A DNA stretch of 64,000 bases. It comes from Diphasiastrum complanatum (lineage: Eukaryota > Streptophyta > Lycopodiopsida > Lycopodiales > Lycopodiaceae). The stretch spans positions 42,661,104 through 42,725,103 of the forward strand of contig CM055103.1 of NCBI GenBank assembly GCA_029204225.1, in the 5' to 3' direction. The notes beneath the pieces are model-generated. The model was not told the DNA's origin. It saw only the letters and a program-made list of their open reading frames with translations, and did not search any database. The translations under genes were made by a program, and so were the position numbers. Shown piece after piece: positions 9,440 to 60,296 of the stretch (within the stretch, counting starts at the first letter, position 1; every line of letters begins with the position of its first letter).

Positions 9440-9490
<51 letters not shown>
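9440..9490. repeat. (GA)n microsatellite at the 3' end of LINE-1
   Basis: Pure GA dinucleotide repeat, 51 bp. Read on the minus strand it is a (TC)n tail directly following the LINE-1 3' hairpin. Confidence 0.95.
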
Positions 9491-9493
<3 letters not shown>

Positions 9494-9537
9494 CATTAAT
9501 GTCTTTTCCATGCCAAAGGCATATAAGACTAATGAAG
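9491..9537 (-). other. LINE-1 3'-terminal hairpin
   Basis: The inner stem pairs ATGCC with GGCAT around a 3-base loop. A second stem pairs GTCTT with AAGAC. The outer 8 bp cttcatta at 9491-9498 pairs perfectly with taatgaag at 9530-9537. The structure sits directly beside the (TC)n tail. Confidence 0.8.
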
Positions 9538-11457
9538 TACACGTCAAGTATGTGGTAACCATGGGAGCGTATAAAACGTCTCCAAAACTGTAATAAAGAA
9601 AACATCTAGTACAAACTAAAACTAAAATAGACACGTATGCAAAAGTGTGTGTGCATAATAATCATTTGTGTCTATGTCAAGATGTCAAGGCTATGATGCT
9701 GTTGTTGTGCTGCTACTGTAAAAAGATGTAATGCGATCCACAACATGAGAGAGCACTGGAGTCAGCCGACGTCGTCTGTGAGCATGAGCATGTGTAGTAG
9801 TATGTCTCTACGTAGGATGTCTGGTGATCCTGGTAGTAGCGTGATGGTGGGGGGTACACTGTCTCTGATCTCTATGAGCATGTGAGCGGCTATCATCCTC
9901 GTCGTCGTCATAATCCTCATCCTCAGGCACTAAATCACACGATATCCGCCTAGTGAAGAATGAAGTAATCAATGGCTGTGAGGTGAACTGATGGGGCGTC
10001 CCGTATAAATCTCTCCGTAGTATGAACATCTCGCGTGCCAACAGAGCGACACATTGTGGGTTCTCATAGGCTATGGCATATCTCGAAACAGCCAGTGATA
10101 TTGCCATCTGATCTCATAGTATAAACTGGGCATCTAAAGATAGAGTGCTCCTCAAACTCCACCTCACCTAGAGAGCATAACTGGCAAATCCGCTCCTCTC
10201 TAGGAATACCATGGAACCTCCCCGTCCCAATAGCTAGCTGATGAGAAGACACCCTGAGCTGTCCCAGTGTGAATCTGAGGCAATGTGATAGTCCCAACTC
10301 CAAGTAGCGTGGCATGACCGGGGTCCCAGATGCATCCAACTCAAAGAAATGTGTCCGGTAGAAAGCTGGCTTAACCCCTATCTAGTTACGCCAAGTCCGC
10401 ACAAGATATACGTGATAGAGGAATCGTCTGATATACTGATGGGTGCCTGAGGGAAGCTCTGTGATGGAGATACCAGATGACTCAAGTAGGAGGTGGGATG
10501 CCTGAGAGAACCATGATAATTTGTAGCCCTGACCATGAAAACGCTGTGAGGAGGATAGTGCAATCTGTATGTATCGTCTGTCCATCTCTGGTAACGTTTG
10601 TATCCTCTGTGTATAGGAACAGAAGGCTTCGCATGGATCAACTGAGCTAGCATAGTGGTCTATGGTCGTGAAAGACTGGCCTAGTGTGAAGAAGGAAGAC
10701 CTGTACACCATGTGATGCCGCATATAGAGCCATGGGGGTGACAATGGTATCAAAGAGGCGACACTTACTGCGAGCATCCTAGATGGACTTCCGCAGACAA
10801 AATCTCTCTAGCTGAACAAGGGAGGCATGTCCCTTCCCCAGTCAAGTGGTGGTAGCCTGTCTCATGCTCCCCATGTATGTGTAGGAAGGGACCACCTCTA
10901 GAACCTATCCACCCAAAGTAAGCTCCTGTCGCTGCATGAATGCTCAAGAAGTGTTGAATACCATAACCTTAGTCTTCCCAATGTTCACCCCTAGGCCCCA
11001 TTTGGTGCAAAACTCATGCAAGCAATCCGACTGTCGCTGTAGACCCTCTCTGGTAGGTGAGACCAATACCACATCATCAGCATAAAGGAGGATAGCAATC
11101 AAGATGTCCCCAAGCCTGCAACTTGCACCACCACGTTGTGTAATGACTCTCTCCAACTCATCAATATACAAGCCAAAGAGGATTGGTGAGAGGGAACAAC
11201 CCTGCTTCACCCCAATAATGCTCCAAAATGTGATCGGATATGCCACTGCTATGTCGGAAACATCCCAGGACACGCTCATAAAGTGCCATCACAGCAAGAA
11301 TGATGCAGTGGAGAAGCTAAGGTCACGGAGTCTCTGGATGAGCAATGAGAGAGGGCTCGAAAACCTGCCTGACCCATAGCATGTAGTCTCCTGTCTAAGC
11401 CTCTGAGCTCACAACAGACTGAAGAATAGTACCATATAGTTTGCCAGGACACGCCCA

Positions 11458-11460
<3 letters not shown>
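9491..11460 (-). pseudogene. LINE-1: 5'-truncated copy, RT C-terminal half
   Basis: On the minus strand the copy begins within RT (MIG-like block IGRVLANY), abutting a (GA)n tract. It has GQAGFR, then a deletion that removes the block containing FVDFRKAFD, and resumes at SIIGVKQGCSLSP. It contains the catalytic ILLYADDVVLVSP block, the GLGVNIGKTKVMVFNTS block, and the C-terminal region with a Cys/His finger (CQLCSLGEVEFEEHSIFRC) near 10130-10190. Frameshifts and stops interrupt it. It ends in the family hairpin followed by (TC)n. It is closely related to LINE-2 and more distantly to LINE-3. It has lost ORF1, the endonuclease and the first half of RT. Confidence 0.9.

Positions 11461-11493
<33 letters not shown>
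11461..11493. repeat. (GA)n joining LINE-1 and LINE-2
   Basis: Pure GA repeat. On the minus strand it is the (TC)n tail of LINE-2 after AATAAAGCTTTC and also the 5' border of the truncated LINE-1. Confidence 0.95.
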
Positions 11494-11496
<3 letters not shown>

Positions 11497-14322
11497 TTTA
11501 TTAAAGTCTTTTCCATGCCAAAAGGCATATAAGACTAGTAAATGTGCATGTCAAGTATGTGGTAACCATAGGAGCGTATGAAACGTCTCCAAGACTATAA
11601 CAAAAATACAGATCTAACTGCTATGATCTGAAACTGAAAAGGATGCGATGATATATGAAACATGTGGGAGCATATATATTGCTAACTGTCATGAATACAG
11701 TATGACACTATCATCCAACCCTGTCTCGCTGATGCTATAAAAGGATGTAATACGGGATGCAGCATGAAGGACTGCTGGTGGTCGATGATGTCGTCTAGGA
11801 AGATGAGGTCTCCTCATGATAAGTCGGGTAGCTCGTGCAACAACATGAGTATGAGTGGAACATTGTCTCTAATCTCAGTGGGCATGTAAGTCTCCATCAT
11901 CCTCATCCTCATCAGATACTAAGTCTCGTCCTCTTCTCCTGGAAAAGAAAAAAGTGATCTGCGGCTGAGAAATATGACTCCGCTGGGCTGTCTGACATAG
12001 GCTCTGTCGTAGAATAAACATCTCTCGTATCATGAGAGCAGCGCATCGAGAGTCCTCATAGGCTAGGAGGGATCGTAGGGTGACAGGCGAATCATGAAAC
12101 AGACAATCATATCTAATACACCGGGCATCTAAAGATAAAGTGCTCCTCTGACTCCACCTCATCCAAGGAACAAAACTGACAAATCCGCTCCTCTCTCGGG
12201 GTACCCTGGAATCTCCCAGTCTCGATAGCCAACTGATGTGATGATACGCGGAGCTGTCCCAATGTAAATCTGAGGCTGTGTGACAATCCCGAGTCCAAAT
12301 AGTGTGGCAAAACTGAGAACCCTACTATGTCAAGCTCAATGAAATGAGTCCAGTAATAGGCGGGTTTAACCCCCAGCTGTCGCCTCCAAGTACGGTCGAG
12401 GTATGCTCTATATAAGAAGCGCCTGATATACTGGTGGGTGCCTGAGGGGAGCTCTGTGATGGATATGCCAAATGAATCAAGGAGGAAATGGGATGCTTGT
12501 AAGAACCACGACAGTCAATAGCCCTGGTCATGAAGGAAGTGTGAGGAGGCAAGTGAGGCCCGTGTATATCTCGTGTCCGCATCTGGTAGATCCTGAACTC
12601 TCTGAATATATGCGATGAGCTGGAAAGCTGCAGCTATCTGAATGGGTGGAACGGCAAACATTGCAAAAAGAATTTCGTGCGGAACCGAGGACTTTGCCCG
12701 AATCATACGAGCTAGCACGGTGGTCTGTAATCGTGAAATGTTGGCCCAGTGTGATGATGGAAGACCTGTACACCATGTCTCTGCTGCATACAAGGTTGTG
12801 GGAGTGACAATAGTGTCAAAAAGTCGGCACTTACTGCGAGCATCTCTGATGGACTTCTTGAAGCAGAACCGCTCAAGCTGAACAAGGGAGGAATACCCCT
12901 TCCCAAGTCGAGTGGTGGCTGCTTGTCGCATGCTGAAAGTAGGACCAGAAAAGAGTATCCCCAAATATGTATACGAGGAAACTACCTCTAAGGCCCGTCC
13001 ATCAAGCATGAGCTCCTGGCGCTGCATGAAGGCTCGAGAAGTGTTGAAGACCATAACCTTGGTCTTCGCAGTGTTCACCCCCAATCCCCATCTGGTACAG
13101 AAACCCTGTAAACAATCTAGCTCCCTCTGTAAACCCTCTCTGGTCGTGAATACTAGTACCACATCATCCGCATACAAGAGAATAGCAATCAAGATGGTGC
13201 CAAGTCTATAGCCAGCTCCTCCACACTGTGAGATGGCTCGCTCTAACTCATCAATGTACAATCCAAAAAGAACCGGCGAAAGAGAGCATCCCTATTTCAC
13301 CCCAATGGTGCTCCAAATGTGATCAAAGATACCACTACCATGTCGGAAGCATCCCAAGACCTTCTCATAAAGAGCCATCACTGCCAGAACAATATCCGTG
13401 GGGAAACCAAGATCCCGAAGTCTCTGAATGAGTAGGGAGCGCGGTACAGAATCAAAGGCTTTCCTGAAGTCCACAAAACAGCTGTAAACCCTTTCTTTCC
13501 TGTGCTTAGCTTCCTCAATCAAAGCTCTAAGTGTGAAAATATGGTCAGTGGTAGAGTAATGAGCCCGGAAACCCGCCTGTTCCAATGCAGGTAATCTCCT
13601 CGATTCCGCCTCTGAGCTTACTGCAGACTGGAGTATGGTACCATAAAGCTTAGTGAGGACATGTCCAATCATGATAGTGCGGTAGTTACCAGGAATCATG
13701 GGATCACCAGTTTTATGGATAGGATGGATGATGTTGGTGCACCAGGATGAAGGGAAGTCAAAGACAATGGAGGAATTGAGGAGAGTGGCTAGTGTGGGAG
13801 CAAGGAGGTCGGTAGCATGGATTAGGAGTTCAGACTCAAGGTCTTCAATGTCTCTTGCTTTATGGGATTTCATTTTCTTGATGGCCGCAAGTACCATGTC
13901 AGCGGTGAAGAAGGTGAACTCAGAGGGACGAGGGGAGATAGAGATAGGTGCGTCAGTAGGTATGGTATATAGACTGGTAACGTAGTCGGTCCATATGCGA
14001 AGGTCTTCCAGGAGAGGTGGTGGAGTACGAGGGATAAACTCACGCCAAAAGGCGCCTGAAGAAGAACTGAAGAGAAGGTCAACGAGGCATTTTCCTTCAG
14101 AGTCATCATAAGCACACTTTTTCCGACGGAGTGTGCGATGATGGTAAGAACGTCGAGCAGAGCAAAGGAGGTGAGGTTCATGACTGCATGCATGGGTGAC
14201 AAGATGATGAAGAGAGCGACACTCGGTATCATACTATGGAGGGTGTGGAGGGCGTAGCGACGAGGGACGTGTGTGTTTGCCTTTATGGGCCTTAGATGGA
14301 AAAGCTAGAGAAGCAGCAGCAT

Positions 14323-14324
<2 letters not shown>
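11494..14324 (-). pseudogene. LINE-2: 5'-truncated copy with nearly complete RT
   Basis: Minus strand. It starts in the linker between endonuclease and RT (AAASLAFPSKAHKGK, aligned with the same linker in LINE-3), directly after (TC)n. RT blocks follow: HPIHKTGDPMIPGNYRTIMI, QAGFRAHYSTTDHIFTLRAL, FVDFRKAFDSVPRSLLIQRL, ILLYADDVVLVF, and GLGVNTAKTKVMVFN. The C-terminal Cys/His region (CQFCSLDEVESEEHFIFRC) is at about 12130-12190. The RT frame is broken by a TAG at 13292-13294, exactly where LINE-1 and LINE-3 have CAG in GVKQGC, and by a TGA near 12515. It ends in the shared hairpin, AATAAAGCTTTC and (TC)n. This is a dead copy, but little decayed. Confidence 0.9.
11506..11535 (-). other. LINE-2 3'-terminal hairpin
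   Basis: Same fold as in LINE-1: GTCTT/AAGAC plus ATGCC/GGCAT with a 4-base loop. An outer stem, TTTATTA against TAGTAAA, has one mismatch or G-U pair. It is followed on the minus strand by AATAAAGCTTTC and (TC)n. AATAAA may serve as a polyadenylation signal. Confidence 0.75.

Positions 14325-14363
<39 letters not shown>
14325..14363. repeat. (GA)n joining LINE-2 and LINE-3
   Basis: Pure AG/GA repeat. On the minus strand LINE-3 ends in TAA repeats, then two TTCTAA units, then (TC)n, and the truncated LINE-2 body follows immediately. Confidence 0.95.
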
Positions 14364-14366
<3 letters not shown>

Positions 14367-14390
14367 AGAATTAGAATTATTATTATTAAC

Positions 14391-14419
14391 GTCTTTTGGT
14401 GCCCAGGGGCACATAAGAC
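14391..14419 (-). other. LINE-3 3'-terminal hairpin with covarying stem
   Basis: The stem GTGCCC/GGGCAC replaces ATGCC/GGCAT of LINE-1 and LINE-2, so both arms changed together. The lower stem GTCTT/AAGAC is unchanged. The hairpin lies about 28 bp from the (TC)n tail. Confidence 0.75.
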
Positions 14420-14600
14420 AAAAGAGAGTACAAAATGTGAGAAGCATTGTCCGCATAAGGACTTATTTACCAATGAAAAGACAGTAAAACTAAAACTAAA
14501 ATATCGATCTCTCTGTCTCTAAGAGAAAAAGTATCCAAGCTTGACCACCAGCTGGTGAGGGTACAAAGCAAGAGCTTAACCACCTGCTCCGCGGAGGAAA

Positions 14601-17600
14601 CTAGCTACGAGCAAGCCGAAAGTAATGAGTGATGGTAGTAGTGGGTCGTGATGTAGGCTGGTGGGAGGCGTATGAAGATCTAGTAGCACTGGATCGAGCC
14701 GAAACTCTCTGTGTCTTCGATCTTCGGACGGGGACGTCAAAATCCGCAACCGAAATATCCACTCTGTCTCGCTTCTGGAAGAACTGAGTAATGTGAGCCT
14801 GACTGGAATCCATATCTGAGAGCGTAGGTAGAAGTGAAGCTCGTAAAATATACATCTCTCTCAAAAGAAGACCCACACATCTAGCATCTGGATACTCGAG
14901 GAAGGAGCTCAACGTGAGGGGAATATCTCGGTATAAACAATGGTATCGTCCTCTAATCTCATAGTATACTGGGCAGCGAAAGATGAAATGAAACTCATCT
15001 TCCACCTCCTGAAGAGAACAAAGCTGACATATCCGCTGCAATCTGGGAGTGTCTGTGTATCTACCTGTCTCGATAGCAAGCTGATGAGAAGAGACTCGAA
15101 GCTGTCCTATACGATATCTCAGACCAAAAGATAGCGTCTGTGTAAGATAAACTGGAAGAATAGGCAAGCCCGAAACGTCCAGCCGTAAAAGATGTGTGCC
15201 ATAATAATGTAGCTTGACCCTATCTGGATCAGGATGTGACCATATAGTGCGTATGTAGCTCCGGTAGATCTGCTGTCTGATATAAGCATGGGTTCCATTC
15301 GGAAGATCAAGTGCGGATAAACCCCAAGTCTGAAGAAGGGCTGAGACACTGCGATACCAAGAGTGCTTGGCTCCCTGATCTGCAATGGTACAAGATGAAG
15401 TGAGAGCAGCAACAATGTATCTGGTGGTATCTAGATCTGATACCCTGTGAAGAAAGGTGATGATCTGAAACATAGCACCAACAACTAATGGAGGAGAAGC
15501 AAACTCGGCTAGTATGATATCATGTGGTACTGAGGGCTTAGCCCGGATTATCCTACTGAGCATGAGAATCTGGATACGAGTAAGATCTCTCCATGTATCG
15601 CGTGATAAATCAGGGCACCAAGTCTCAGCCGAATATAGCACAACTGGGGAGACAGTAGCAGAAAATAGTAGGCATCTGGTAGCAGGATCCTGCACATAAT
15701 AAGTAGAGCAAAATCTCTCCATATGCACAAGAGCGGTATGCCCCTTGCGGAGCCTGGCGGTGGCTGCTGGTCGAAAAGTGAGTAGCGGACCAGAGAAAAG
15801 AACTCCCAAATAGGTGTAGGAGGTCACGATCTCAATCGGTAGCCCGTCATAATAGAAAATCACATCTCTCATATGCTGTCTGTTGGTGTTAAACACCATA
15901 ATCTTAGTCTTCTTAAGGTTAACCGTCAATCCCCAACGCTGGCAAAAGTGATGTAAAGCAGAAAGGTGACTCTGTAAACCAGCTGCAGAGGATGAGAGGA
16001 GAACCACATCATCAGCGTACAAGAGAATGGGGATAATAATGTCTGCTAGGGGACAGCCCTCTCCACCTTCCTCGCGAATAATCCGCTCGAGGTCATCTAT
16101 ATATAGTGCAAAAAGAGTGGGTGATAAGGGGCAACCCTGCTTCACCCCAATGGTAGAATGTATCTGTGAGGACCAGCCACTACCATCTCTGAAACGTGCC
16201 AAGACTCGCTCATATAAAGTAATGATCGCAGCAATAGTATCCTCTGAAAAGCCAAGTGAAGACAGTCTCTGGAAAAGAAGATGTCGTGGAACAGAGTCAA
16301 AAGCTTTGCGAAAATCCACAAAGCAACAGTAAATTCTCTGTTTCCGATGTCGAGCCTCCTCAATAATGCATCTCAAAATGAAGATCTGGTCTGAAGTAGA
16401 ATATCCCGGTCTGAAACCAGCTTGACCCATAGCGTGTAAACCCTCAGTTTCAGCAAAAGATCCAGTGACTGTCTGTAGTATAGAGCCATATATCTTAGCT
16501 AGAGTGTGGCCAATCATAATGGTGCGGTAGTTTCCTACATTCATGGGATCACCTGCCTTGAGGATGGGGTGAAGGATATTAGTACACCAAGCCGTAGGAA
16601 AACCAGAAGTAACAGCTGTGTTAAAAACATGAGCAATGTAAGGGGAGATGAGATGTGCTACGGGCTTTAGGAAGTCTACACTTAAGGAGTCATAGTCAGT
16701 GGCTTTATTTAGTTTGGCATGTTTAATGGCGTTTTCAACCATGTCAGGGGTGAAAAGTGAGCAGTGGTCAGGTCTCGGTGAGAGTGAGGTAGGAGGAGAG
16801 TCCGTGGTATATAACTCCGTGGCATACTCGATCCAGGATTCGATGGCTATGGGGGCCAATGTTGAAGAGTGTCTGGTGAAATGTTTCCAGAAAAAAGAGG
16901 AGGAGGGTGAATCTAAAGAGTTGCTCATTTTTTTGCAGAGTGATTGTAGGTACTTGATCTTCTTTGTTCTGGTGGTTCTATGATATTCTTTCTGGCATTG
17001 TTTGAGTGTGGCAGGGGAGTGTGACCTGGCATATGTCACATGATTGTGAAGAGAGCGGCATTCTGCATCATACCATCTGTTATGAACACTTCTGTGAGAT
17101 GATGTCGTTTTGGTGGGGAAGGATGAGGAAGCAGCAGCTAAGAGGGATGTAGAGAGAAAAGTGGCTTGCTAGTCAATTGGTGCCATGAACGGGAAGTTAG
17201 CGAGTAGTTGGGATAAGATTGTGGTGTAATTAGTGAATCCAGATTGGGTGAAAGGAATACGTTTATGAGTGGGAAGAGAGCAAGAAATTTGCAAAGAAGA
17301 GGTTATGTGACCAAGTGAGATGTGTAAGAGTGAGTGATCGGAAATGGTAGGGGGTGTGATGGAGAAATCAGAAATGTGAGAGATCAAAGCAGGTGATCCA
17401 ATGAAGTAGTCGACCACACTATGTCCTCCACCATGAGGATAGCATGTATATGCTGATGAGGAAGGCCACTGTGTGAGGCCATTCAAAATGGCAAGAGCGT
17501 GTGTCTCTGCTAGAGTGATCAACTGCTCCCCGAAAGATGTAGCTGGAGTGTCTGCATCCTGTGATACCCGGTCTAGCCCCATATCCAAAGGGTAAAGCCT

Positions 17601-18104
17601 GAGAAGATCCGTAGCTGCATGAAATTCGGTTTGTCTAGAGCTTGTGCGGGCGTTGAAATCACCTGCTAGTAAAATGGAACCCTGCTGAGAAAAGATAGCA
17701 ATATCATCTGAGAGAGCCTGAAAAGGGTCCCCGCCAAACTCAGCAAACACTGAGGTCTGTGGAGCAAAATAGCATACAGCTATATAGATGTCCTGAGGTA
17801 ATCCCAATAGTGAGCCAATAATGTGTAACCAAATATAGCGAGCGTATGGATCTTGTTTAACCATCTGAACTGTGGTGTCTCTGTATAAACAAGCTACTCC
17901 TCCAGATCCTCGACAAGTTTTTCCCCTAACAAATGGACGAAAAGCAGAATGCCAAGAGTACTCCTGTATATTTGGAAGAGGATGATATAAGGACTCATGA
18001 GTTTCAGCCAACAACAAAATGTCGCATTTTCTAATAAAATCAGCAAAGTCTCCGGCTGATGACGAAGATAAAAAACCATTACAATTCCAGAAGCCAAGTC
18101 TCAA
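14601..18104 (-). CDS. LINE-3 ORF2: endonuclease-reverse transcriptase with one internal amber
   Basis: Would nick target DNA and copy the LINE RNA into the nick (target-primed reverse transcription). Numbering from the TTG at 18104, the AP-endonuclease residues are N7 (WNCNG), E34 (LAETH), D139/N141 (GDFNAR), D212 (VDYF) and D236/H237 (SDHSLLH), all present. Codon 312 is TAG (17169-17171), in the linker. RT follows: NYRTIMIGHTLAKIYG, FVDFRKAFDSV (catalytic Asp about 597), GVKQGCPLSPTLF, YADD about 696-699, and NLKKTKIMVFN. A Cys/His motif (CQLCSLQEVEDEFHFIFRC) lies near 1020-1045. No ATG precedes the endonuclease catalytic residues; the first in-frame Met is after E34. The frame is continuous with ORF1 upstream. 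The copy is nearly intact but broken by at least the internal TAG unless that is read through. Confidence 0.9.
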
Positions 18105-18152
18105 ATTGGTAGGGGATCTCGGGTAGCTTCTATATCCGGGGGCCCCTAGTTC

Positions 18153-19061
18153 CTATTGTGGAAGGTCGAAAAATCTCGGTTTCCCGTCAATAAAAACAAC
18201 CCTTTGCCCTTTCTCTTTCGCTTCAAGGATAATCTTTTTTCTTGCCAACCATTGAGTATTTGTTAAGTCATCATCCATATAAATGAAAGTACCTTTAAGC
18301 TTTGCCCTAAGCCGAAGGGCAGCATTGCGTTGTGAAAGCGAGCGGAACTTGATAAACAAAACATTGTCATCAAATTTACTGCGCCAAGCAGTATCAAAAC
18401 CGTCAGCCACATGAGATAACTTGGAAATGAGCAAATCCGTAGCTTCTTCCAACGGTTTTCCACCATTGGCAATGCCTCTTACTCTAATGTTAAAGGCTTT
18501 TTTGGCCCTTCTGGCTTGTTCACCCAAAACTGTCTCCAAATCGTTTTCCTTCGGAAAAGATGAAATCTGAGAGTGATTACCTTGCTTAAGGATCGATGTC
18601 GTTTCTTCAACCTGTTTTGCGAGTGATGAGAGTTTGCTGCCCATATCATCCGGTTTGAAGAGTGCTGCCCACGTTTTCGTCTCCTCGACTTGTTTCTCCA
18701 AGCTATTGATCTTGTTGGAAGTCTCCTCCAAGGCACTTTTTTCTGCGATTCGTTGCTTAAGATATATATTTTCTTGCTCAAGCTGCTCCACACGTTCCGT
18801 GACACCAAAAAGATCCTTAGCTAACTTGCTATTTTCAGCTTCAAAGAGGTGTAGTTGTTTCTTAAGTCCAAGAATTTCTTGCCGGATAAAACTAAGATCA
18901 TAAGCAAAAAGACTTTCGGTAGGTTTGGAAGGAGTGTAGTCAATGGCAGCCATGTTGATAGTTTCTGTCACCGAAGACGGCTCCTCCATCACTACCGGTG
19001 ATGGGGGGGTGTCCAACAGGGAGGGGGGTGTAAGAACACCCTCCTTTTTCTTAGGTGCCAT
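18153..19061 (-). CDS. LINE-3 ORF1: coiled-coil RNA-binding-type protein
   Basis: 302 codons from ATG (MAPKKKEGVL) to TAG. A basic, Pro-rich start precedes a long heptad-rich region (residues about 55-165; LKKQLHLFEAENSKLAKDL, VEQLEQENIYLKQRI, INSLEKQVEETKTW), predicted as a coiled coil that would trimerise. The C-terminal third (about 190-302) is basic, with IRVRGIANGG, VLFIKFRSLSQRNAALRLRA and a final LARKKIILEAKEKGQRVV. It resembles the C-terminal domains of ORF1 proteins that bind LINE RNA. There is no CCHC zinc knuckle, unlike the usual ORF1 of flowering-plant L1 elements. The stop lies in frame with ORF2, 16 codons before its leucine (TTG) start region. Confidence 0.85.
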   Translation of the reverse strand: MAPKKKEGVLTPPSLLDTPPSPVVMEEPSSVTETINMAAIDYTPSKPTESLFAYDLSFIRQEILGLKKQLHLFEAENSKLAKDLFGVTERVEQLEQENIYLKQRIAEKSALEETSNKINSLEKQVEETKTWAALFKPDDMGSKLSSLAKQVEETTSILKQGNHSQISSFPKENDLETVLGEQARRAKKAFNIRVRGIANGGKPLEEATDLLISKLSHVADGFDTAWRSKFDDNVLFIKFRSLSQRNAALRLRAKLKGTFIYMDDDLTNTQWLARKKIILEAKEKGQRVVFIDGKPRFFDLPQ

Positions 19062-19249
19062 AGGAGGCGGTAAGCAGATGGAGGACCAGCGCAGGGCAGC
19101 GTAGGGCAGGTGCGAAGGTCAGCACTGCAGCGCCAGCAGGGCGGACAGCAGCGCCAGCAGGGCGGGTGGGCGCGCAAGAGAGAGAGAGGGCAGCAGCGCT
19201 AGCAGGGCGGGCAGCGCACCAGCAGGGCGGGCAGCGCACCAGCAGAGCG

Positions 19250-19251
<2 letters not shown>
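19062..19251 (-). promoter_or_regulatory. LINE-3 5' region with GC-rich tandem units
   Basis: Strongly GC-rich within an AT-rich neighbourhood. At 19125-19250 about five units of the form CAGCRC(A)CAGCAGGGCGG repeat every 18-40 bp. The position directly upstream of ORF1 and the repeat structure suggest an internal promoter or 5' UTR monomers. Function is inferred from position only. Confidence 0.5.

Positions 19252-19304
<53 letters not shown>
19252..19304. repeat. (GA)n at the 5' border of LINE-3
   Basis: Pure GA repeat, 53 bp, directly upstream of the LINE-3 5' region on the minus strand. With 14325-14363 it brackets the full-length element. Confidence 0.95.
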
Positions 19305-19305
<1 letters not shown>

Positions 19306-20214
19306 ATGTGCATCGTGGGAGATATCCTTGGAGTAAAAAAATTTGCCATGGTTTCATGGTGAGGAGGGTTTAGCATAGTGGATTGTGCAATGTGTTTTAT
19401 GTTTTGAAATTTGTGCAATGTGCATTTGATGATCATTGATTGTGCATTCAATCTTGAATCTTGATCATTGATAATTTGATTGTGATTTGTGAGATGATAG
19501 ATCATAGGTTTGAGTCTTGACTCTTGACAATGGACATAATGGACTAGAAGAACGAAGCAATAAAGAGTGCCAGACTGAAGGTGGGACCATATTGGAGAAC
19601 TATTTGGATCTTGAAAAACATGTGGAATTGAAAGTGGAGAATGCTCAGAGAAAACTAGAGGTTTGGAACCCTGCAGAAGTTACTATTGGAGAAGTGCAAT
19701 CCTGTATGCATGCAAACAAAACAAAAAAAGGTTCAAACCTTTTCCTAATTCGAACCGAGCTAGCCGGTTTGAATCGGCCGATTCAAATTGGCTGGTAACG
19801 TTGAACATTTCCAAAGGTGAAATTGTTGCAATAGATGACTGGTGACAAGACACCATACAAACCCTGCTGCTCCAAAACTACAAAACACAAGTTCCTTCAA
19901 AACACCTTTTATGATATGAATTGTCACCTCCTTTTCACCCAACAATAGATCACCACACCCCACCTTTCGAAAAATACTTAGAAACAATAGCTTGCTATGT
20001 GTTCAAAGAAAGGAATTGCATAAGAACACTAAATGAATAATTCATACTATCCATGCTTTCTTCGTCTTTGGGCGCTTTTTGGCTAGAATTTCCTCCTTGC
20101 TCTCCACCACCTCCTCTCGTAGACTTATACACCTGGGTCCAATATGACGGTTCCAGCTTCACCCATCACGATATTCCCCAAACCTACTGACTTCACCATT
20201 TTAACTCTACACAT
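19305..20214. other. Intergenic stretch between LINE-3 and LINE-4
   Basis: No recognisable gene. It contains an 18 bp perfect palindrome at 19769-19786 (TTGAATCGG and its complement) inside a 30 bp imperfect one. An open frame at 19517-19798 has no recognisable similarity. Confidence 0.4.
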
Positions 20215-21656
20215 GGTAATGTCAGCTATTGAAAAATAGAAATGTAATAAACCTCAAAACATAGACGATCTCGAGTCTGAATTGCTTATCCATGCTGCAG
20301 ATATCATATCTCCTATTATTGCTAATCTCCTGAACTCCCTCATCTTGGTGCATGAATGTTCCATAAAGCAGGTGACTTTATGGAATGATTGGCCATGTCA
20401 TTACCAAGCTCTATGGGATCATAATGCAGACAGTAGTGAGAAATGAAGCAAAGATCAAATGGTTACACACATTGGGGTAGGTTAGCTTTAAACAACATTA
20501 ATCTACTTCTGACCACAACTTCACTCTCAAGTCCATTATTGAGGAAGCCAAATTCGGGAAGCAAAAAGTTCACTATTGTTTTGTGGATTTCAAGTGGGCC
20601 TTTGATTCTGTTCCAAGACATAACCTCATACAGCGATTCAGGGACCTTAAATTTTCCAAGACATCGTACTTGCAGTGATGGCACTTTATGATTTCGATAT
20701 TTCAGGAAAGATAGTGGCACATTTGAGATGGTCCTGAGCACTATTGGGGCAAGGCAGGGATGCTCTTTATCTCCCACTTCATTTGGACTGTACATTGATT
20801 CTCAGGATGGGGGCCAGGACTGCAAACTAGGAGAAATAATGATTTCCATACTACTATCTGCAGATGATGTGAGAAGGATTGTAATGTCATCTCAATACCT
20901 TACTCCCTTTTTATAGAGCATGGAGACTAGAGGTTAGCATCCAGAAGACTAAGATTATGGTCTTTACCACTTCGCAATTGAGAGTTTCTTCATACCACCT
21001 TCAAATTAAGATAAGCAGACTTCATGGGAACCCACAAACGGAGCGAGTCTATCAGCTTCGTTCATTGGCTGAGGTAGAAACAGAGGAACAGTTTATTTTC
21101 AGGTGTCCACTATACCTCAAGATCAGAAATAGATACCAATCTCTTTTTCATTGACCAGCTTGTCACAATGCACTCCTTGATACATTATGAGGATCAGAGA
21201 TGTATTGCACTGATGCTTCGAGAGATGTTTCGTGTAGGTGACCATACAGCTCGGACTCCTTGTTAGCCTCAGACTCAGATTCAGATTACATCTTTCTTCA
21301 ATACATGACAAGCCAGAGATCCAGGAGTTGATACAGAGACAACTCCCTCATCCCGTTCGAATTGCACAGATTGTCAAAAAGCTGCCCCATCGACCTTTAG
21401 AGTTAGAGACATAGAGCTCATTTTTTTAGCTGACATCATTTTTCAGTCATAAATTACATCTGTAATTTGTTATATTTTTTTATGTATGTTTATTTTATAG
21501 TTTGATCAAAATCTTTATAGATTCTCTTAATCTATTTTGGGTGAAATTTATGAAAGCTCCCACTAGTTCCATACACACACGAAATGTACTCTGGTAAACT
21601 TACGTACCTTTATAGACATTAATAAAGCTTTCTTTGTTTCTTTGTTTCTTTCTCTC
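20215..21656 (+). pseudogene. LINE-4: decayed LINE of the same family
   Basis: On the plus strand, in several frames, it reproduces LINE-2 blocks. DDLESELLIHAADIISPII lies near 20265-20330, HCFVDFKWAFDSVPRHNLIQ-like sequence near 20570-20640, and the GARQGCSLSPTSFGLYID block near 20745-20800. A degraded LLSADDV block replaces YADD near 20850. The C-terminal Cys/His region (YQLRSLAEVETEEQFIFRC) lies near 21050-21105. Many stops, frameshifts and deletions are present. The 3' end is gacattaataaagctttc at about 21615-21632, as in LINE-2, but the tail is TTTG/TTTC units with a short CTCTC. This is an older insertion in the opposite orientation to the array. Confidence 0.8.
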
Positions 21657-22212
21657 ACACAAACAGAAACATTTGATTTACATGTAGCAATTTCTAGATT
21701 ACTTCTACTTCAAGTTTAGAAGATATAACCCTACATTTACATAAGCTTGATAACAACCAAGCACCATCTCTTCCTTCTAGGCTAATCTACCCTTCTTCCT
21801 TGTTCTCTTCACTATTTCAACTTTGATTTCCAAAAATAGGACAAGTACTAGCACATAGACTTTGATTTGCTGAGAGCTCATCATATGAAAACTTACAGCT
21901 AAATCTCTACTAACATGAATTTGGGAAAAACGCAAATCAAATGTGAACATACTCTAGGCATTTGTGCCTTTGATACGCAAGGTACTAACTAACAGGGAAC
22001 CCACAAAGAAATTCAATAATACATAATAAATATAGGGTTTAAAACTTTCTAAAAATTGTACCTTTGAGTGTGCTTGCAAGTGCACATGAACCTTCTAAAA
22101 GTTATTTGATCAACATCACCACACTTTTTAAGTTCTTTTGAACCTAGTCCAAATCGATCGAGCCATGTAGAGGCTTAAAACGAATGATACAATATGGTAC
22201 AAGTGGTCATAC
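21657..22212. other. Intron or intergenic sequence downstream of HAD exon B
   Basis: AT-rich, with no recognised coding sequence. It should be intron of the host HAD gene on the minus strand, since a splice donor ends exon B at 22213. The next exon (expected to begin with a GDGRPFWK-like motif) was not found down to position 1. Confidence 0.45.
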
Positions 22213-31826: not shown

Positions 31827-32184
31827 TGTTACGAGCTCGTAACCAGTGCCGAACCCTAGGGAACACAGATAGGTCAGATACCACAGTCAGGGTCGTGTCC
31901 AGTGTACATGACCAACAGGGCAAGACAGTGTGAGTAGTGTGCCCCAGCACGGTCCATAGCCATGGCGGGCCTAACACAGCCTAGGGACCCTGTCAGCAGG
32001 ATAGGGCCCCCAGTTGGGTCCCGACGTGCAGTCGACCACGTCAGTGCCACGTGGCCGACACTTGGCAGTTGCATGCTACCAGTCCTCACACTGGGCTAGG
32101 AGGGGCTTACTCTATATCAGGGAGTAGGCAAGGTTGGGTGGATCAGTTAGTGTTTGCCCTACTGTGGTGTTAGGATCTATTACA
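31827..32184 (+). repeat. 5' LTR of Gypsy-2
   Basis: TGTTACGAGC to ATCTATTACA, 358 bp. Compared with the 3' LTR there are two differences, G/A in aacaRgg and C/T in cagtYga. Both are transitions and one is at a CpG. Confidence 0.97.
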
Positions 32185-32185
32185 C

Positions 32186-32197
32186 TGGTATCAGAGC
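32186..32197 (+). promoter_or_regulatory. Primer-binding site of Gypsy-2 (initiator tRNA-Met)
   Basis: TGGTATCAGAGC one base after the 5' LTR, the standard complement to the 3' end of plant initiator tRNA-Met. Minus-strand DNA synthesis would start here. Confidence 0.95.
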
Positions 32198-32283
32198 CAT
32201 CTCCTTCTATGGGAGCTCAGTTTCAGCAGGGGAGAAATCCATCAGAGTGCATAGCAACTATGGTTAATATGCAAAGATAGATA

Positions 32284-32760
32284 GAGCAGGGTCAGCGCTG
32301 GAGAACCAGCTATCTATGGTGGAAATCTCCGTAGGATTACTTGTTTTTACAGTAAAATTTGAATCAGCTTTCTAGGCCAGGTCTAGCGCTGCCAATCAGG
32401 GTTTAAACTTCGATTTTGGGAGTGGAAATTCCGGATTTTGGAGCGTTTTCAAGTCAGGAAGTTTGATGCAGACCAGCGCTGTCAGAGCAGCCTCCTTCCT
32501 TGAGTTTTGAGTGGAAATCAGTGACAAATTGAGCAAGATTTGAAGCGGATTTCTACAGCAGGTCCAGCGCTGGACAGTAGGGGATAAATTTTAGAATTTA
32601 TCCTTGCATTTCAAAAGTTTTCTAGAAGTCTGAGCTTCAGACTTGCTTGTCACAGACCAGCGACCTACCAGCTGAGGTCAAATCAGAGATTCAAGCGGAT
32701 TTTTGAGTCTAAATGTGGACAAATTGAGATGCTGTCAGACCAGTGAGGGGGGATAGCAAA
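32284..32760 (+). repeat. Six diverged ~90 bp units in the Gypsy-2 leader
   Basis: A motif of the form CAG(A/G)YC(C/T)AGCGCTG recurs at about 32290, 32376, 32470, 32563, 32656 and 32737, a spacing of roughly 81-94 bp. The first four retain the palindrome AGCGCT. The last two are decayed (ccagcgacc, ccagtgagg). The units lie between the primer-binding site and gag, where packaging signals are found in retroelements. Confidence 0.65.
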
Positions 32761-32956
32761 AGTTTCAGATCTTGTTGCACATTTTCCAACCTCAAATCAG
32801 ATTGAGAAAGAAGCTGAGAAGGGTTTTTCTGTATTCTCTCTGTGGAAGTACAGTTCTCAGAAAGAGCTAAGTTTCCTTTCCCTTGTACAGTTGTAAATTA
32901 GTCTTTTAGACTTTTTTTCCTTCAGAAGTTAAGGTAGCTCTCTTTCAGTTCCGAAG

Positions 32957-35900
32957 ATGACCACTCCTCAGGGACCTGATCAACCCCCGGAGAGAGGCTT
33001 CGACGAACTTGAAACAAAAGCCTTGGCTTATATAAAAGGGAAGGAACCCATGGAAGTAGAAGAACAGGAACAGTTCGCCGAAGAACTCGACGAACTGGTT
33101 ACCAAGGAGCAGTTCCTCCAATTGGTAACAGAAGTGGATGAACTGAAGCTGGCATTAGCCAATTTCAAGTCCAGTGTGGACGACTCGTTCGCTGAACTCA
33201 AAAACTTGATTTTGAGCTCCGCGAAAGGAAGCCTTCCCTCCACTTCTCAGTTATCCCCTTCTCCACTTCCATCAGTTTCGGGTGAGACTTTACGGTCTCA
33301 CCCCAGTGTTTTTAAAGATTTAAAGCCTCCTACTTTTAATGGGGAAGAGAAGGATAGAAATGCAGATATTCTACAAACCTTCCTCAGCAAATGGAAGAAC
33401 ATTCATGCTCTTAAACAGACCCCTGACCATTTGCAAGCAATTGAGGCCAGTCTTTCCTTAGGGCCTATGGCCTATAAGTGGTGGTTAAATCTCCAGGAGA
33501 CTGGGCAGACTCCCCGGTCATGGAAAGCTTTTGAAGAAGCCTTCCTAAGAGAATTTCTACCAGAAAATGAACTGGATAGAGCCTGGGAAGCCTGGGAAAG
33601 AACAGTAATGGATAAATCCCTCATCCGATATATCTCGCAGTATCGAGAAGCAATTTTAAAGATTAAAAATATGGATGACTATCAGAAAATCAGGGGATTT
33701 GTCCGTGGCCTCAAAGATGAATATAAAGTAGAGGTCCAGAGAAACTCGCCTACTACCCTTGAGCAAGCTCTCAGATATGCTCAAATCTATGATGATTCAG
33801 TGGGTAGGAAGAGAGCGAGACAGCAACCACTTTCTGAGCAGCTTCCTCAGAAAGACTTTCAATTTAAAAAGAAATTTTTAAAAAGAAAGAAAGAAGATAA
33901 ATTTAAAGGTGAAGCTCCTCAGAAACGCCCTTCACTCATACAGCCCTTAAAACCAGATGATTTTGAGAAAGCCAAACAAGAACGTTTGTGCTTTGTGTGT
34001 ATGGGCAAGGGACACACAGTCAGACAGTGTCCCAAGGGGCCTTTCACTAAAAAAGATAAAAAAGATAAAAAACAAGTTCATCTTGTTCAGACTGTATGTT
34101 TCCCCAGTGACTCGGCAGCTTCCGAGATCAAAGTGTATCATGAAGATCATGAACACTGTTGCCAGCTGACCTCTGCAATGCTAGCGAGACCCTTCAGCTT
34201 TGGGCCGCATGACCTAGTACGTATGCATGGGAAAGTTGGTAACCAGTCAGTAAGAGTCATGGTTGATGATGGGGCAACCCATAATTTCATCAACCACACC
34301 CTGGTTAAAAAGCTTAAACTACCAGAGGTACCTAGTCAGCATAGGTACATAGTTTCATTAGCTAAGGGTGAAGATAAAAAAATATGGGAAACTATGGTAA
34401 GTAAGTTAAATCTTGGTATTCAGGGGTACCAAGATGAAATAAACTTTCAGATAATGCACCTGGATCGAACAGACATTGTTCTCGGGAGAGATTGGCTCTA
34501 CAGTTTAGGACCTTCCCTCCACAGAAACTATCAGGAGAACACCCTCAGCTTTCAGCATAAAGGCCGAGAGATCCAGTTGCATGGGGAGCATGATGTTCCC
34601 AACAGCCCTATGGTCTGCAGTTCAGAGCTCTGTCAGCTAATCGGAGACGAAGACCATCAGGTATTCTTATGTGACTTTCAGTTTATTCCTGAAGTTTCTA
34701 TTTCCAGTTCTATTCAGCAGAAAATCAGTAAATTAGAAACTTTATTGTCTAAATTTAAAGATGTTTTTCCTGAAGATTTGCCACATGGTTTACCACCTAG
34801 CAGAGAGGTAGATCATGTAATAAACCTAGTACCAGGTACAGCACCTGTTTCTAAACCTCCGTATCGGGTCAGCCGAACAGAGGATGAAGAAATAACTAGG
34901 CAATTAACAGACTATCTTGGGAAAGGCCAAATTCAGACCAGTAGTTCACCATGGGCCTCACCAGTCCTATTGGTGAAAAAGAAGGAGGGGTCTATGCGTC
35001 TTTGCGTAGATTACAGAGCCCTCAATAAAGTCACAATTAAGAATAAATACCCTATGCCTCGGGCAGACGAGTTGTTTGATCAACTCGACGGGGCTAAGTT
35101 TCTCAGCAAAATAGACCTCAGATCGGGATATCATCAAGTCCGTATAAAATCGGAAGATGTCTCGAAAACAGCTTTTAGGACTCGTCACGGTCATTATGAG
35201 TTTAAGGTGATGCCATTTGAGCTCACAAATGCTCCAGCTACCTTTATGACCTTGATGAACAGTGTCCTCAGACCATACTTGGGTAACTTTGTAGTCGTAT
35301 TTTTAGATGACATCCTCGTCTACAGCAAAACGAGGAAGGAGCATCTAAAACACCTCAGAAAGGTGTTTCGACTGCTCAGAAAGCATAAGCTTTATGCTAA
35401 ACAATCCAAGTGTGAATTCTTCGTTGAAGAAGTAGCATATTTGGGTCACATTATCTCTTCAGATGGGATTAAGATGGACCCAAATAAGGTTAAAGCCATA
35501 CTCAGTTGGCTGAGACCTCAAAATATTTTGGAACTTCAAATCTTTCTTGGTCTGGCGGGATATTACAGACGATTTGTCAAGGAATATGCTCAGATAGCAG
35601 TCCCTATGACAAATCTTCTTAAGGGGAAGGGAAAGGAGTTCATTTGGGAGTCCGCACAACAGGAGAGCTTTGATGCTCTCAAAACAGCCTTAGCTACAGC
35701 ACCAGTCTTAAAAGTCGTTGACCCCAATCAGCCATTTGTGGTCGAAACAGATGCTAGCGACTTTGCAGTAGGCGCTGTGCTAACTCAGGGTGGACGACCA
35801 GTTGCGTTCGAGAGTAAAAAACTCGAGCCAGCTCAGACTAGGTACAGTGCCTATGAAAAGGAACTCTTTTCTATAGTCCATGCCCTTAAGACTTGGAGGC

Positions 35901-37744
35901 ATTATTTGTATGGTGCCAACTTTGAGGTCCTGACAGACCATGAGAGTCTCAGATACCTTTGCAATCAACCTGAGCTTAGAGGTCGAAAAGCTCGTTGGGC
36001 AGAGTTGATGCAATAGTTTGACATGTCTATCAGATATAGGCGTGGAAAATTCAATACAGTAGCAGATGCCCTTAGCAGAATGCCTATGATAAACGAGCTG
36101 AGTTTTACTCAGATTCGTAATGAGTTACTCGAGTCCTTGAGAGGGAAATGCCAGCATGATGCATTCTTCTCTATTATCTGGAACTCAGTCCAGAATAGAC
36201 AGTTACAGACTCCAGAACCAGTTCCCGGGGCTGGTGCCAGTTCATCCAAGAATACGGCAGCTTCCGTTGAGGATGATGATGAGTCCGAGTATACGTCGTC
36301 AGATGACGTTGAGGATTTTGAGCCTGTATTACCCAAGCAAACCCCTGTGGTTGAGGGTCAGTTGACTCAAGGATTCAAATGGAAACAGTATTCCATTTAG
36401 GATGAGTACTTGCTCTATAGAGATAGAGTATGTGTCCCCAATTCAGAGGATTATAGGCAGCAGGTCCTATATGAATGTCATGACAATCCTAGCGCGGGAC
36501 ACCCAGGCATACAGAAGACCTATGAGCTTCTTCGTAGGCAATTTTTCTGGCCCAGTATGAAAAAGGACGTCCACCAGTATGTAACCAGTTGCCAGAAATG
36601 TCAAGTAAATAAAGCAGAGCGTTTAAAGGCAGGAGGGTTGTTGCATCCCTTAGAAATACCAGCTGGTAAATGGGAGAGTATCTCCATGGATTTTATAGTA
36701 GGCCTGCCTAAAACCCAAAAGGGTAATGACGCTATATGGGTCACAGTTGACCGTCTGACCAAAATGGCTCATTTTATTCCGACCAAAACAACCGTTAGAG
36801 CTCCAGAGTTAGCGAGGTTGTTTGTAGACGGGCTATTTAAATTGTACGGTCTACCTTCCATCATAGTCAGCGACCGGGACAGTAAGTTTACTGGAAATTT
36901 TTGGAGGGCAGTATTCCATCATCTCCATACTAAACTTAATATGAGTACCACCGACCATCCACAGACAGACGGTCAAACAGAAAGGGTAAATCAAGTGCTG
37001 GAGGATATGCTTCGTGCATACGTCAGCAAGAGGCAGACTAATTGGGAGGAGTATCTCTCGATATTAGAGTTTGCTTACAACAGTACCAAACATTCAGCTA
37101 CGGGATACAGCCCATTTATGCTGATGTACGGTTTTCAGCCACGCTCACCCACAGCTGTAGGGTTTAAACAAGAAAAAGTTGAAGCAGCCAAAAACTTTTT
37201 AGAAGACCTAAACCAGATGATAGAACATGCTAAGCGTAGCATTAGACAATCCCAGGATCGAGCCAGGCATTATGCAGATCCACACAGACGGGATGTGCAG
37301 TTCTCCACTGGTGAGAAAGTCTACTTGAGAGTCCCAGTTGACTCTAAAACCCTCAAATCAGGAGTGTGTGCTAAGTTGTCTCCAAGGTATTGTGGTCCCT
37401 TTACCATCAGTAGGAGACTAGGCGAGGTCACCTATGAACTAGAACTCCCACACAGCAGTAAGGTTTTTCCACTCTTTCATGTAAGTCAGTTACGAAAAGC
37501 CTTAACCAGATCAGATAATCTGGTAGGGGACAGTGTTCTAGTTCTCCCATTGGATCCTCAACAACCTCCACATGAACCAGAGGAGATTCTTGATAGTAGA
37601 GAGACGCAAACTCGTCATACTCTATACCGAGAATATCTGGTTAAGTGGAATGATCAGCCTGTTGAGAATGCCACTTGGGAAAGAGGCAGCGTCCTTCGCA
37701 AGATTTTTCCAGACTTTGTCTTAGAGGACCAAGACGGTTCTTAA
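32957..37744 (+). CDS. Gypsy-2 gag-pol polyprotein with two amber codons
   Basis: A single frame of 1,595 codons from ATG ([14 protein letters not shown]) encodes the whole element. Gag has a coiled coil (about 40-100) and a core with [12 protein letters not shown]; the zinc knuckle is at 345-358 ([14 protein letters not shown]). Protease reads DDGATHNF at 437, where D(S/T)G is expected. RT has [32 protein letters not shown] (Glu755 where Gly is usual) and FLDD at 782-785. RNase H spans about 925-1040 ([22 protein letters not shown]). TAG occurs at codons 1020 (36014) and 1148 (36398). Integrase has an HHCC finger (AGHPGIQ to CQKCQ), [19 protein letters not shown] and [12 protein letters not shown]. 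The chromodomain lies near 1550-1585 ([16 protein letters not shown]). The two stops and odd residues probably make this copy inactive. Confidence 0.93.
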
Positions 37745-37755
37745 GGGGGAGGGAG
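37743..37755 (+). promoter_or_regulatory. Polypurine tract of Gypsy-2
   Basis: aagggggagggag directly before the 3' LTR. It would prime plus-strand synthesis. It overlaps the polyprotein stop codon TAA at 37742-37744. Confidence 0.9.
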
Positions 37756-38113
37756 TGTTACGAGCTCGTAACCAGTGCCGAACCCTAGGGAACACAGATA
37801 GGTCAGATACCACAGTCAGGGTCGTGTCCAGTGTACATGACCAACAAGGCAAGACAGTGTGAGTAGTGTGCCCCAGCACGGTCCATAGCCATGGCGGGCC
37901 TAACACAGCCTAGGGACCCTGTCAGCAGGATAGGGCCCCCAGTTGGGTCCCGACGTGCAGTTGACCACGTCAGTGCCACGTGGCCGACACTTGGCAGTTG
38001 CATGCTACCAGTCCTCACACTGGGCTAGGAGGGGCTTACTCTATATCAGGGAGTAGGCAAGGTTGGGTGGATCAGTTAGTGTTTGCCCTACTGTGGTGTT
38101 AGGATCTATTACA
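37756..38113 (+). repeat. 3' LTR of Gypsy-2
   Basis: 358 bp, two differences from the 5' LTR, followed by the duplication taaac. Confidence 0.97.
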
Positions 38114-44469: not shown

Positions 44470-45012
44470 GACCTGATTCTGATGACGTCATCCAAAGGAA
44501 CGTTAGGACGTGCTTAATCAACCATTCTTGTAATCTCAGATCAAATTAGACCTTCTTCTCTCTATCCATATAAATAACTCAAACATGAGAGAACAGGTTG
44601 AACATCATTTTTGGTGGTATGAGCACCGTGTAGCCGGCTAATGTTCAAGAAGTCTGCTAGTAAGCGCGACAAGTTTTGATTCGCAAAAGGCAGAGCTTCT
44701 TTCACGTCGACGCGCTGTGTGATCTGTCACAACAACGCTCAAGGGATTATCTGATAATGTAGTAGATGTTTTATGCAGATGAGTTTCTTGTCTTGAACAT
44801 GATCGAATGCTTAATTGTCTGATAATTGTATGTACAATTGTAATCAACTGGTTTAATCTTATTCCGCACACTGGTTTTGTCTTGTTGAATGTATAAACAA
44901 ATTATACATAGGACAATTTCACACCTTGGAGGATTGTAGATCCTATCACAGAGGGTAGTAGACCTGAGGACATAATCGAATTCCATCTAGGTTTATTTCT
45001 GTAAGAATGTCA
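44470..45012 (+). repeat. 5' LTR of Copia-3 (left border uncertain)
   Basis: The right end is fixed by the primer-binding site at 45017. The part from about 44662 is repeated in reverse orientation at 59914-60245 (for example cgcgacaagttttgattcgc and ttgtctgataattgtatg-like strings), which confirms that it is a dispersed LTR. Confidence 0.65.
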
Positions 45013-51203: not shown

Positions 51204-51757
51204 TATCATGTGCTGCATGTCATTAGCCCATGATCTTATCAATGAATCGCCAAATATAATCATGGAGCTAAATTAGATTAGAACTAGTCAATAGGATAGT
51301 TAATAAAGTGGTTCGAACAACCTCGCTATAATTGAGAATAGCGGAATTGTAATAATGGTTGTAAGGCCCAATTTAGCTAAATAAGGCCCCAAAATTATAG
51401 TAGAGGCACAAAATACCACTATAAATATCTGAGGTCGTGCTAAATTTGGAGGCTATTATTCATTTTGTAATTTTGAGTTTTAAGAGATCTTGGAGCTTCT
51501 CTTTGAGAGCCTTCTTGATGAAGAAAGTGGTTCATGTGCCTAAAATCGCATGAGAGCTATGATCATGCTCTAGAATCAGGGTTTATCTTGTGAATGATCA
51601 ATAATCATGAATAAAGATACCTTACTTTGCCTAATCTGGTGAAGTTTTGCTACTTTTAGCTATCTTCTTTATTTTTTACTAGTTTCTTGCATTTCCATTG
51701 TAATTTGATGTTTAATGAATGGATTAGATGTTTGAATGCTAAAGGTGGCACATGACA
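51204..51757 (+). repeat. 5' LTR of element T
   Basis: Starts tatcatgtgc (TG mutated to TA) and ends gcacatgaca. It contains a TATA box and AATAAA near 51610. Confidence 0.93.
51418..51427 (+). promoter_or_regulatory. TATA box in element T LTR
   Basis: CTATAAATAT, present as ctataaatag in the 3' LTR near 58696. The position in the middle of the LTR fits the U3/R start of transcription, with AATAAA about 190 bp downstream. Confidence 0.55.
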
Positions 51758-58480: not shown

Positions 58481-59038
58481 TGTCATGTGCTACATGTAAT
58501 TAGCCCATGAGCTTACTAATGAATTGCCAAATATAGCCATGGAGCTAAATTAGATTAGAACAAGTCAATAGGATAGTTAATAAAGTGGTTCGAACAACCT
58601 CGCTATAATTGAGAATAGCGGAATTGTAATAATGGTTGTAAGGCCTAATTTAGCTAAATAAGGTCCCAAACTTATAGTAGAGGCACAAATGACCACTATA
58701 AATAGCTGAGGTCATGCTAAATTTGGAGGCTATTGTTCATTTTATATTTTTGAGTTTTAAGAGATCTTGGAGCTTCTCTTTGAAAGCTTTCTTGATGAAG
58801 AAAGTGGTTCACGTGCCTAAAATCACATGAGAGCTATGATCATGCTCTAGAATCAGGCCCTATCTTGTAAATGATCAATAATCATGAATAAAGATACCTT
58901 ACTTTGCCTAATTTGGTGAAGTTTTGCTTTAGCTATCTTCTTGATTTTTGACTAGTTTCTTGATTTCTTGCATTTCCATTGTAATTTGATGTTTAATGAA
59001 TGGATTAGATGTTTGAATGCTAAGGTTGGCACATGACA
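58481..59038 (+). repeat. 3' LTR of element T
   Basis: tgtcatgtgc to gcacatgaca, preceded by gtagggggag. It differs from the 5' LTR by roughly 33 substitutions and a few indels, counted by eye. Confidence 0.93.
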
Positions 59039-59913: not shown

Positions 59914-60245
59914 AGATTCTCATAGAAATAAACCCAGATGGCATTCAATTTTGTCCTCAGGTCTACTACCCTCTGTGACAAGATCTACAATCCTCCAAGG
60001 TGTGTAATTGTCCTATGTATAATTTGTTTGTGCATTCAACAAGACAAAATTAGTGTGCGGAATAAGATTAAACTAGCTGATTACAATTGTACAAGCATTC
60101 GATCATGTTCAAGACGAGAAACTCATCTGCATAAAACATCTACTGCATTATCAGAGAATCCCTTAAGCATTGTTCTGACATATCACACAGCGCGTCGGCG
60201 CGAAAGAAACTCTGTCTTTCGCGAATCAAAACTTGTCGCGCTTAC
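59914..60245 (-). repeat. Copia-3-type LTR fragment, reverse orientation
   Basis: Reverse complement of about 44662-45005, clearly similar along its length (gaattccatct/gaatgccatct, gtttatttct, ttacaattgta, cgcgacaagttttgattcg). Element M begins where this LTR would end. Confidence 0.8.
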
Positions 60246-60296
60246 TATAACAAAATCACACGACAAATGAATGTCCACAGAATAGACAGATAGCCC

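Follow-up and report, generated by a model that had tools for sequence, protein, structure and literature searches.

What brings three long interspersed nuclear elements (LINEs) together head to tail, with a microsatellite at every join? This question was raised by a 64,000-nucleotide stretch of the genome of the clubmoss Diphasiastrum complanatum (Lycopodiaceae; GenBank assembly GCA_029204225.1, contig CM055103.1, positions 42,661,104 to 42,725,103; hereafter the window, with positions counted from its first letter). An earlier note, made from these letters alone, had described three minus-strand LINE copies joined by pure (GA)n tracts and had proposed that (TC)n is their target. Microsatellite-specific LINEs are known from animals (Kibi, Waldo, and Dong). 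By comparing the array with further genomic copies of its full-length LINE and with LINE-free counterparts of their insertion sites, we conclude that, very probably, a clubmoss L1-type non-long terminal repeat (non-LTR) retrotransposon lineage inserts specifically into (TC)n microsatellites, and does so in one orientation.

The four pure (GA)n tracts were present at all the positions given in the note. As it had described, the LINEs, here termed A, B, and C, each ended 3′ in (TC)n (none of the three ended in poly(A)), and the full-length copy, LINE C, had (TC)n at either end. No LINE end in the array lacked an adjoining (TC) tract. Read along the minus strand, the order was host DNA, (CT)n, LINE C, (TC)n, truncated LINE B, (TC)n, truncated LINE A, (TC)n, and host DNA, with the following features:

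19252-19304, minus strand: (TC)n tract 5′ of LINE C, taken as target DNA; tract and junction both seen
14364-19251, minus strand: LINE C, full-length copy of a young family, with 20 further copies at 99.1 to 99.8% identity
19127-19250, minus strand: 5′ leader with GC-rich repeats of 20 to 21 bp, variable between copies
18156-19061, minus strand: open reading frame (ORF) 1, 302 amino acids, modeled as a coiled coil, an RNA recognition motif, and a C-terminal domain, L1 ORF1p-like
18153-18155, minus strand: UAG separating ORF1 from the in-frame ORF2
14601-18152, minus strand: ORF2, APE-type endonuclease and reverse transcriptase by Pfam and fold match
17169-17171, minus strand: private stop within ORF2 of the window copy, missing from all 20 fetched copies
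14325-14363, minus strand: (TC)n tract between LINE C (3′ end) and LINE B (5′ end)
11493-14324, minus strand: LINE B, 5′-truncated, second family, its ORF2 interrupted by stop codons and frameshifts
11461-11492, minus strand: (TC)n tract between LINE B (3′ end) and LINE A (5′ end)
9491-11460, minus strand: LINE A, 5′-truncated and decayed, third family
9440-9490, minus strand: (TC)n tract between LINE A (3′ end) and host DNA
20100-21660 (bounds approximate), plus strand: an older LINE of this group, decayed and oppositely oriented, its 3′ end in a degraded TTTC/TC-rich stretch

The three LINEs had been taken for copies of one family, which their identities contradict. DNA identity was ∼74 to 79% between A and B (aligned blocks) and ∼65 to 74% between C and either of the others, values that indicate insertions of three related families.

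We searched the D. complanatum genome (1.745 Gb, 5176 contigs; the chromosome number is 23) with 2 kb of LINE C ORF2, scoring the best 40 of 5834 first-look candidates; these 40 were shown as 100% identical and lay on many contigs, the window included. Our copy sample consisted of the next 20 matches in list order plus the window copy, 21 in all. The 20 fetched copies were 99.1 to 99.8% identical to LINE C and all extended to its 3′ end. Median pairwise divergence among the 21 copies was 0.155% (3860 bp), with a mean of 2.7 private substitutions per copy, and the lineage has been recently active. Two loci, L017 and L026, shared flanks at 98.6 to 99.8% and were therefore counted once, leaving 20 independent insertions, the window copy among them.

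Under targeting, most copies should have (TC)n at either side; this was seen in 21 of 21 copies and 20 of 20 independent insertions, with TC on the sense strand in all 21. A poly(A) 3′ end, usual for plant and mammalian L1, was absent: all 21 copies ended in a short (TAA)n(TTCTAA)n run followed by (TC)n. Nine of the 20 independent insertions were 5′-truncated at nine distinct points (53, 64, 167, 181, 231, 238, 323, 517, and 931; five within ORF1), and these nine began 0 to 8 nt from TC, with little shared sequence between the cDNA end and TC at the upstream junctions of most. The remaining copies were full length, with a long TC tract 1 to ∼98 nt upstream, past variable leader repeats; one of the sampled copies, L014, began 4 nt into the leader, at TC. 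The leaders of the window copy (19127-19250), L012, L013, L017, L019, L022, and L026 to L028 carried GC-rich repeats of 20 to 21 bp, whose number differed between copies and which were interspersed with short TC runs.

Across the genome, the exact 30-base 3′ end of the family occurred 501 times, against 0 for the reversed control, and ran straight into TCTCTCTC in 353 of the 501; 100 listed 3′ ends were dispersed along C1 to C4. In the genome at large, a count that advanced two bases at a time gave 1,589,100 (TC)15 matches on one strand and 1,574,016 on its complement, from which (TC) tracts of ≥30 bp amount to at least 6.3 Mb, or at least 0.36% of the genome; on the assumption of 50,000 to 150,000 tracts, the share would be 0.44 to 0.60%. 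The outer flanks of the fetched loci (114 kb) held two such tracts totaling 378 bp, or 0.33%. Because all 20 independent insertions lay in TC, in one orientation, against this low background, chance is excluded as an explanation. The load of long (TC)n in this genome is unusually heavy. No CA, TA, or CG tracts of ≥16 bp were found in the window or in the scored outer flanks of L029 to L058.

If (TC)n is the target, LINE-free counterparts of the filled sites should hold it as well. We searched the genome with the joined flanks of 11 sites, eight of them together (L012, L028, L027, L011, L018, L015, L019, and the window) and three together (L017, L014, and L013), with 40 matches listed for each search. 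Counterparts were found among the matches listed for four of the 11 sites (L015, L018, L011, and L017). The 40 matches of the first search divided into one for L015, 11 for L018, and 28 for L011. Thirty counterparts were inspected at the sequence level and all contained a TC tract, degenerate in two. The L015 counterpart, L031, matched the flanks at 100% and 99.5% and held 23 bases of TC; the 11 L018 counterparts had TC in a gap of 16 to 32 bp; and the 18 L011 counterparts inspected had it in a gap of 10 to 22 bp, several with one or two changes and two (L050 and L057) with degenerate TC. Within this set, L055 and L056, and likewise L050 and L057, look like duplicates of one another. For L017, all 40 listed matches crossed the join at 97 to 99% over 318 to 330 bases; these were seen by alignment only, and they should hold similar TC because the matched 322-base query includes 22 bases of it. 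A (TC)n empty site was recovered at three sites and, by alignment, at L017: at the checkable sites (TC)n is a pre-existing target, and the orientation of insertion is fixed.

The surroundings varied. Insertions L009, L015, L023, and L024 lay within compound repeats, with the junction in the TC part; several lay at the tail of an older LINE, and others in non-LINE repeats whose paralogues already hold TC. The last group means that targets are not supplied by old LINE tails alone, and the suggestion in the earlier note that new copies prime on older tails is partly right. A 9-base direct repeat beyond the TC of L017/L026 was considered as a target-site duplication and rejected; we read it as native because the 40 LINE-free matches align across it.

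Older LINE ends in L009, L010, L016 (twice), L020, L021, L022, L024, and L025 finished in TC, or in TTC/TTTC units and then TC, as did LINEs A and B of the window, and older LINE pieces started at or near TC downstream of L015, L016, L025, and L028. These ends come mostly from beside young insertions and are a biased sample. The RNA 3′ end would be pyrimidine-rich in the families seen, AAUUC in the young one and CUUUC in most of the older ones.

Together these data suggest how insertion might proceed. The APE-type endonuclease would nick the GA strand within a (TC)n tract, and the resulting (GA)n 3′ end would pair with the pyrimidine-rich terminus of the LINE RNA, ..AAUUC or ..CUUUC and conceivably a short (UC)n as well, and would prime reverse transcription, with slippage on TTCTAA or TTC units. 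Such pairing would account for TC lying on the sense strand and for the slippage units. The cDNA end would then be joined to upstream TC, often after 5′ truncation. Since TC tracts are left at both ends of an insertion, old insertions become targets in their turn, and different families can pile up head to tail.

Several observations weigh against specific insertion into (TC)n. Filled TC at L011, L017, and L018 (∼80, ∼290, and ∼80 bp) exceeded the 10 to 32 bp of the paralogues, and simple insertion into tracts of that size leaves the longer filled tracts at three of the four sites unexplained. Seven of the 11 sites had no LINE-free counterpart among the matches listed, which were dominated by repeats; because repeats filled those matches, we take the seven as evidence neither way. 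The leader of L016 was rearranged, with TC 74 nt upstream, and L015 had 8 extra bases between the 5′ TC and the element. The exact 3′ end was present in 16 of the 21 copies, 13 leading directly to TC and three through extra TTCTAA units, and the sequence that follows was not settled for 148 of the 501 genomic occurrences. Sampling by identity to 2 kb of ORF2 leaves out very short copies, and the specificity of the endonuclease for (TC)n is itself putative.

We asked whether the array could instead reflect local duplication of one insertion event, the outcome that the earlier note had set against targeting. Three adjoining LINEs in a single orientation would suit it. Because A, B, and C represent three families and are truncated at different points, they do not stem from one event; the same flanks were moreover found at 19 further independent insertions elsewhere, and we rejected duplication as next to impossible. 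Alternatively, the (TC)n might be part of the LINE itself, with a (UC)n tail on the RNA being copied into ordinary sites and the upstream TC arising from 5′ joining. The filled tracts at L011, L017, and L018, longer than those of most LINE-free paralogues, are what such a tail would leave, as are the downstream tracts of >100 bp in five of 20 insertions, with no upstream tract of that length. That account is nonetheless very improbable: the LINE-free counterparts hold TC at the exact point of insertion (for L017 by alignment), L015 gained almost no TC, and truncated copies would lack a template for the upstream tract.

A different division of labor has a better, if still somewhat unlikely, claim, namely that the endonuclease is not TC-specific and that, after loose cutting or in open chromatin or unusual DNA, pairing between RNA and (GA)n alone selects TC. 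The insertions in compound repeats (L009, L015, L023, and L024) and the pyrimidine-rich RNA end of the families seen are consistent with it; the compound-repeat junctions fall in the TC part, however, and the fixed orientation requires at least strand-specific priming, although sequence alone cannot separate cutting from priming. Specific insertion into pre-existing (TC)n remains our preferred reading, with the strand chemistry as its tentative part.

The filled tracts themselves measured 68 + 13 at L011, 62 + ∼20 at L018, ∼70 + 219 at L017, and 18 + 9 at L015, where the gain over the 23 bases of the LINE-free site was near nil. The longer ones may reflect choice of long alleles, growth at insertion, or growth afterwards. 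Neither tract is the same in the two alleles, L017 and L026, which shows that tracts also change after insertion. The asymmetry between 5′ and 3′ tract lengths was weak (Kolmogorov–Smirnov p = 0.08; Wilcoxon p = 0.65). One speculative and, in our estimate, rather doubtful possibility is that the LINE not only exploits its target but also extends it: each insertion would lengthen TC and leave better landing pads. If true, this feedback would build up LINE arrays running head to tail and would account for a share of the long (TC)n in the genome, at least 6.3 Mb in all. For a new copy, TC might in addition act as a pyrimidine-rich promoter element.

What kind of LINE does this? In LINE C, ORF1 and ORF2 lie in the same frame with a UAG between them. 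ORF2 matched the Pfam endonuclease and reverse transcriptase families PF03372 and PF00078; Pfam found neither RNase H nor zf-RVT in ORF2 and gave no match for ORF1. The structural model of ORF2p (predicted local distance difference test score (pLDDT) 83.1, predicted template modeling score (pTM) 0.69) had human L1 ORF2p as its best fold match (8uw3, E 2.3e-34), followed by R2, and its endonuclease part aligned with the human L1 endonuclease at a target template modeling (TM) score of up to 0.79. The ORF1p model, of moderate confidence (pLDDT 68.9, pTM 0.38), best matched human L1 ORF1p (2yko, E 5.7e-07), and all seven matches with E ≤ 0.001 were human L1 ORF1p (target TM 0.39 to 0.48). On architecture and modeled fold, we class the lineage as L1-type.

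The UAG was in frame in all 20 fetched copies, and an internal stop in ORF2 occurred in the window copy only, among the 21. An older LINE in the flank of L028, 46% identical over 110 amino acids of the endonuclease, kept the UAG at the same point (L028:7464-7466) with similar following sequence; its ORF1 had an additional stop 12 codons before the UAG. ORF2 of the young family has its first methionine downstream of the conserved endonuclease glutamate (E50). ORF2 is likely translated by readthrough or reinitiation, and stop-codon readthrough in a LINE is a possibility. RNA structure after the UAG did not exceed chance (z = +1.03).

ORF1 was 97% identical over its whole length to the D. complanatum protein O6H91_02G138100 (a cluster of eight member sequences), and three of the four other matches in the protein search were also from D. 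complanatum. The public D. complanatum annotation is contaminated by this LINE family, with copies of ORF1 listed as hypothetical proteins. A separate D. complanatum gene model, O6H91_Y196800, carries glycoside-hydrolase Pfam domains and ends in a piece of a LINE endonuclease of this kind; that piece (residues 571-682) matched three genome places at 99%. No relatives in viral contigs were confirmed.

Among known systems, Togen is a further animal-type comparison, a LINE that targets (TG)n (PMC4640811). The clubmoss LINE resembles Kibi, Waldo, Dong, and Togen in inserting into a simple repeat of fixed motif, with the repeat on both sides, and differs from the animal microsatellite LINEs in its clubmoss host and in that both of its protein models best match human L1. 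Zepp of green algae forms tandem arrays of 5′-truncated copies by nested insertion into existing copies, with one cluster per chromosome in Coccomyxa (PMC8226300), and its 3′ end is listed as (A)n in a table (PMC3747384). Both belong to the green lineage and build arrays by nested insertion; unlike Zepp, the clubmoss LINE has a (TC)n end and scattered copies. In a 2013 compilation, (A)n forms the 3′ end of 224 of 233 flowering-plant L1 families, nine have no repeat there, and none has a different one (Table 3, PMC3747384); eight of the 15 green-algal L1 families finish in different repeats, (CA)n and (TAA)n among them (PMC3747384). RNase H has been reported from plant L1 (PMC4640811). The clubmoss LINE shares with flowering-plant L1 its two ORFs, APE-type endonuclease, and reverse transcriptase, and differs in the (TC)n end and in the absence of RNase H from ORF2 by Pfam. 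It shares with human L1 the folds of ORF1p and ORF2p, which are best matches, and differs in having no poly(A) end, in inserting into (TC)n, and in the ORF1-UAG-ORF2 arrangement in one frame.

We found no plant LINE of this kind in the accessible literature; most subscription papers were outside the search, and absence from print is unproven. A review mentions plant transposable elements surrounded by microsatellites (PMC12477314). Animals supply the best-known site-specific LINEs, and the clubmoss case would extend simple-repeat targeting to land plants and to an L1-like protein set, offering for comparison with human L1 an L1-type endonuclease with a defined short target. It suggests that LINE and microsatellite may shape each other, and it accounts for LINEs arrayed head to tail with no need for a role at centromeres or telomeres.

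Elsewhere in the window, direct repeats at 31827-38055 (300 nt matched, 99% identical, 5929 apart) surround a long gypsy-like open frame, and this interval is probably a young LTR retrotransposon. A second pair of direct repeats (51206-51505 and 58483-58782) was 94% identical and 7277 apart, and an inverted pair (44658-45008 and 59916-60247) was 92% identical and ∼15 kb apart.

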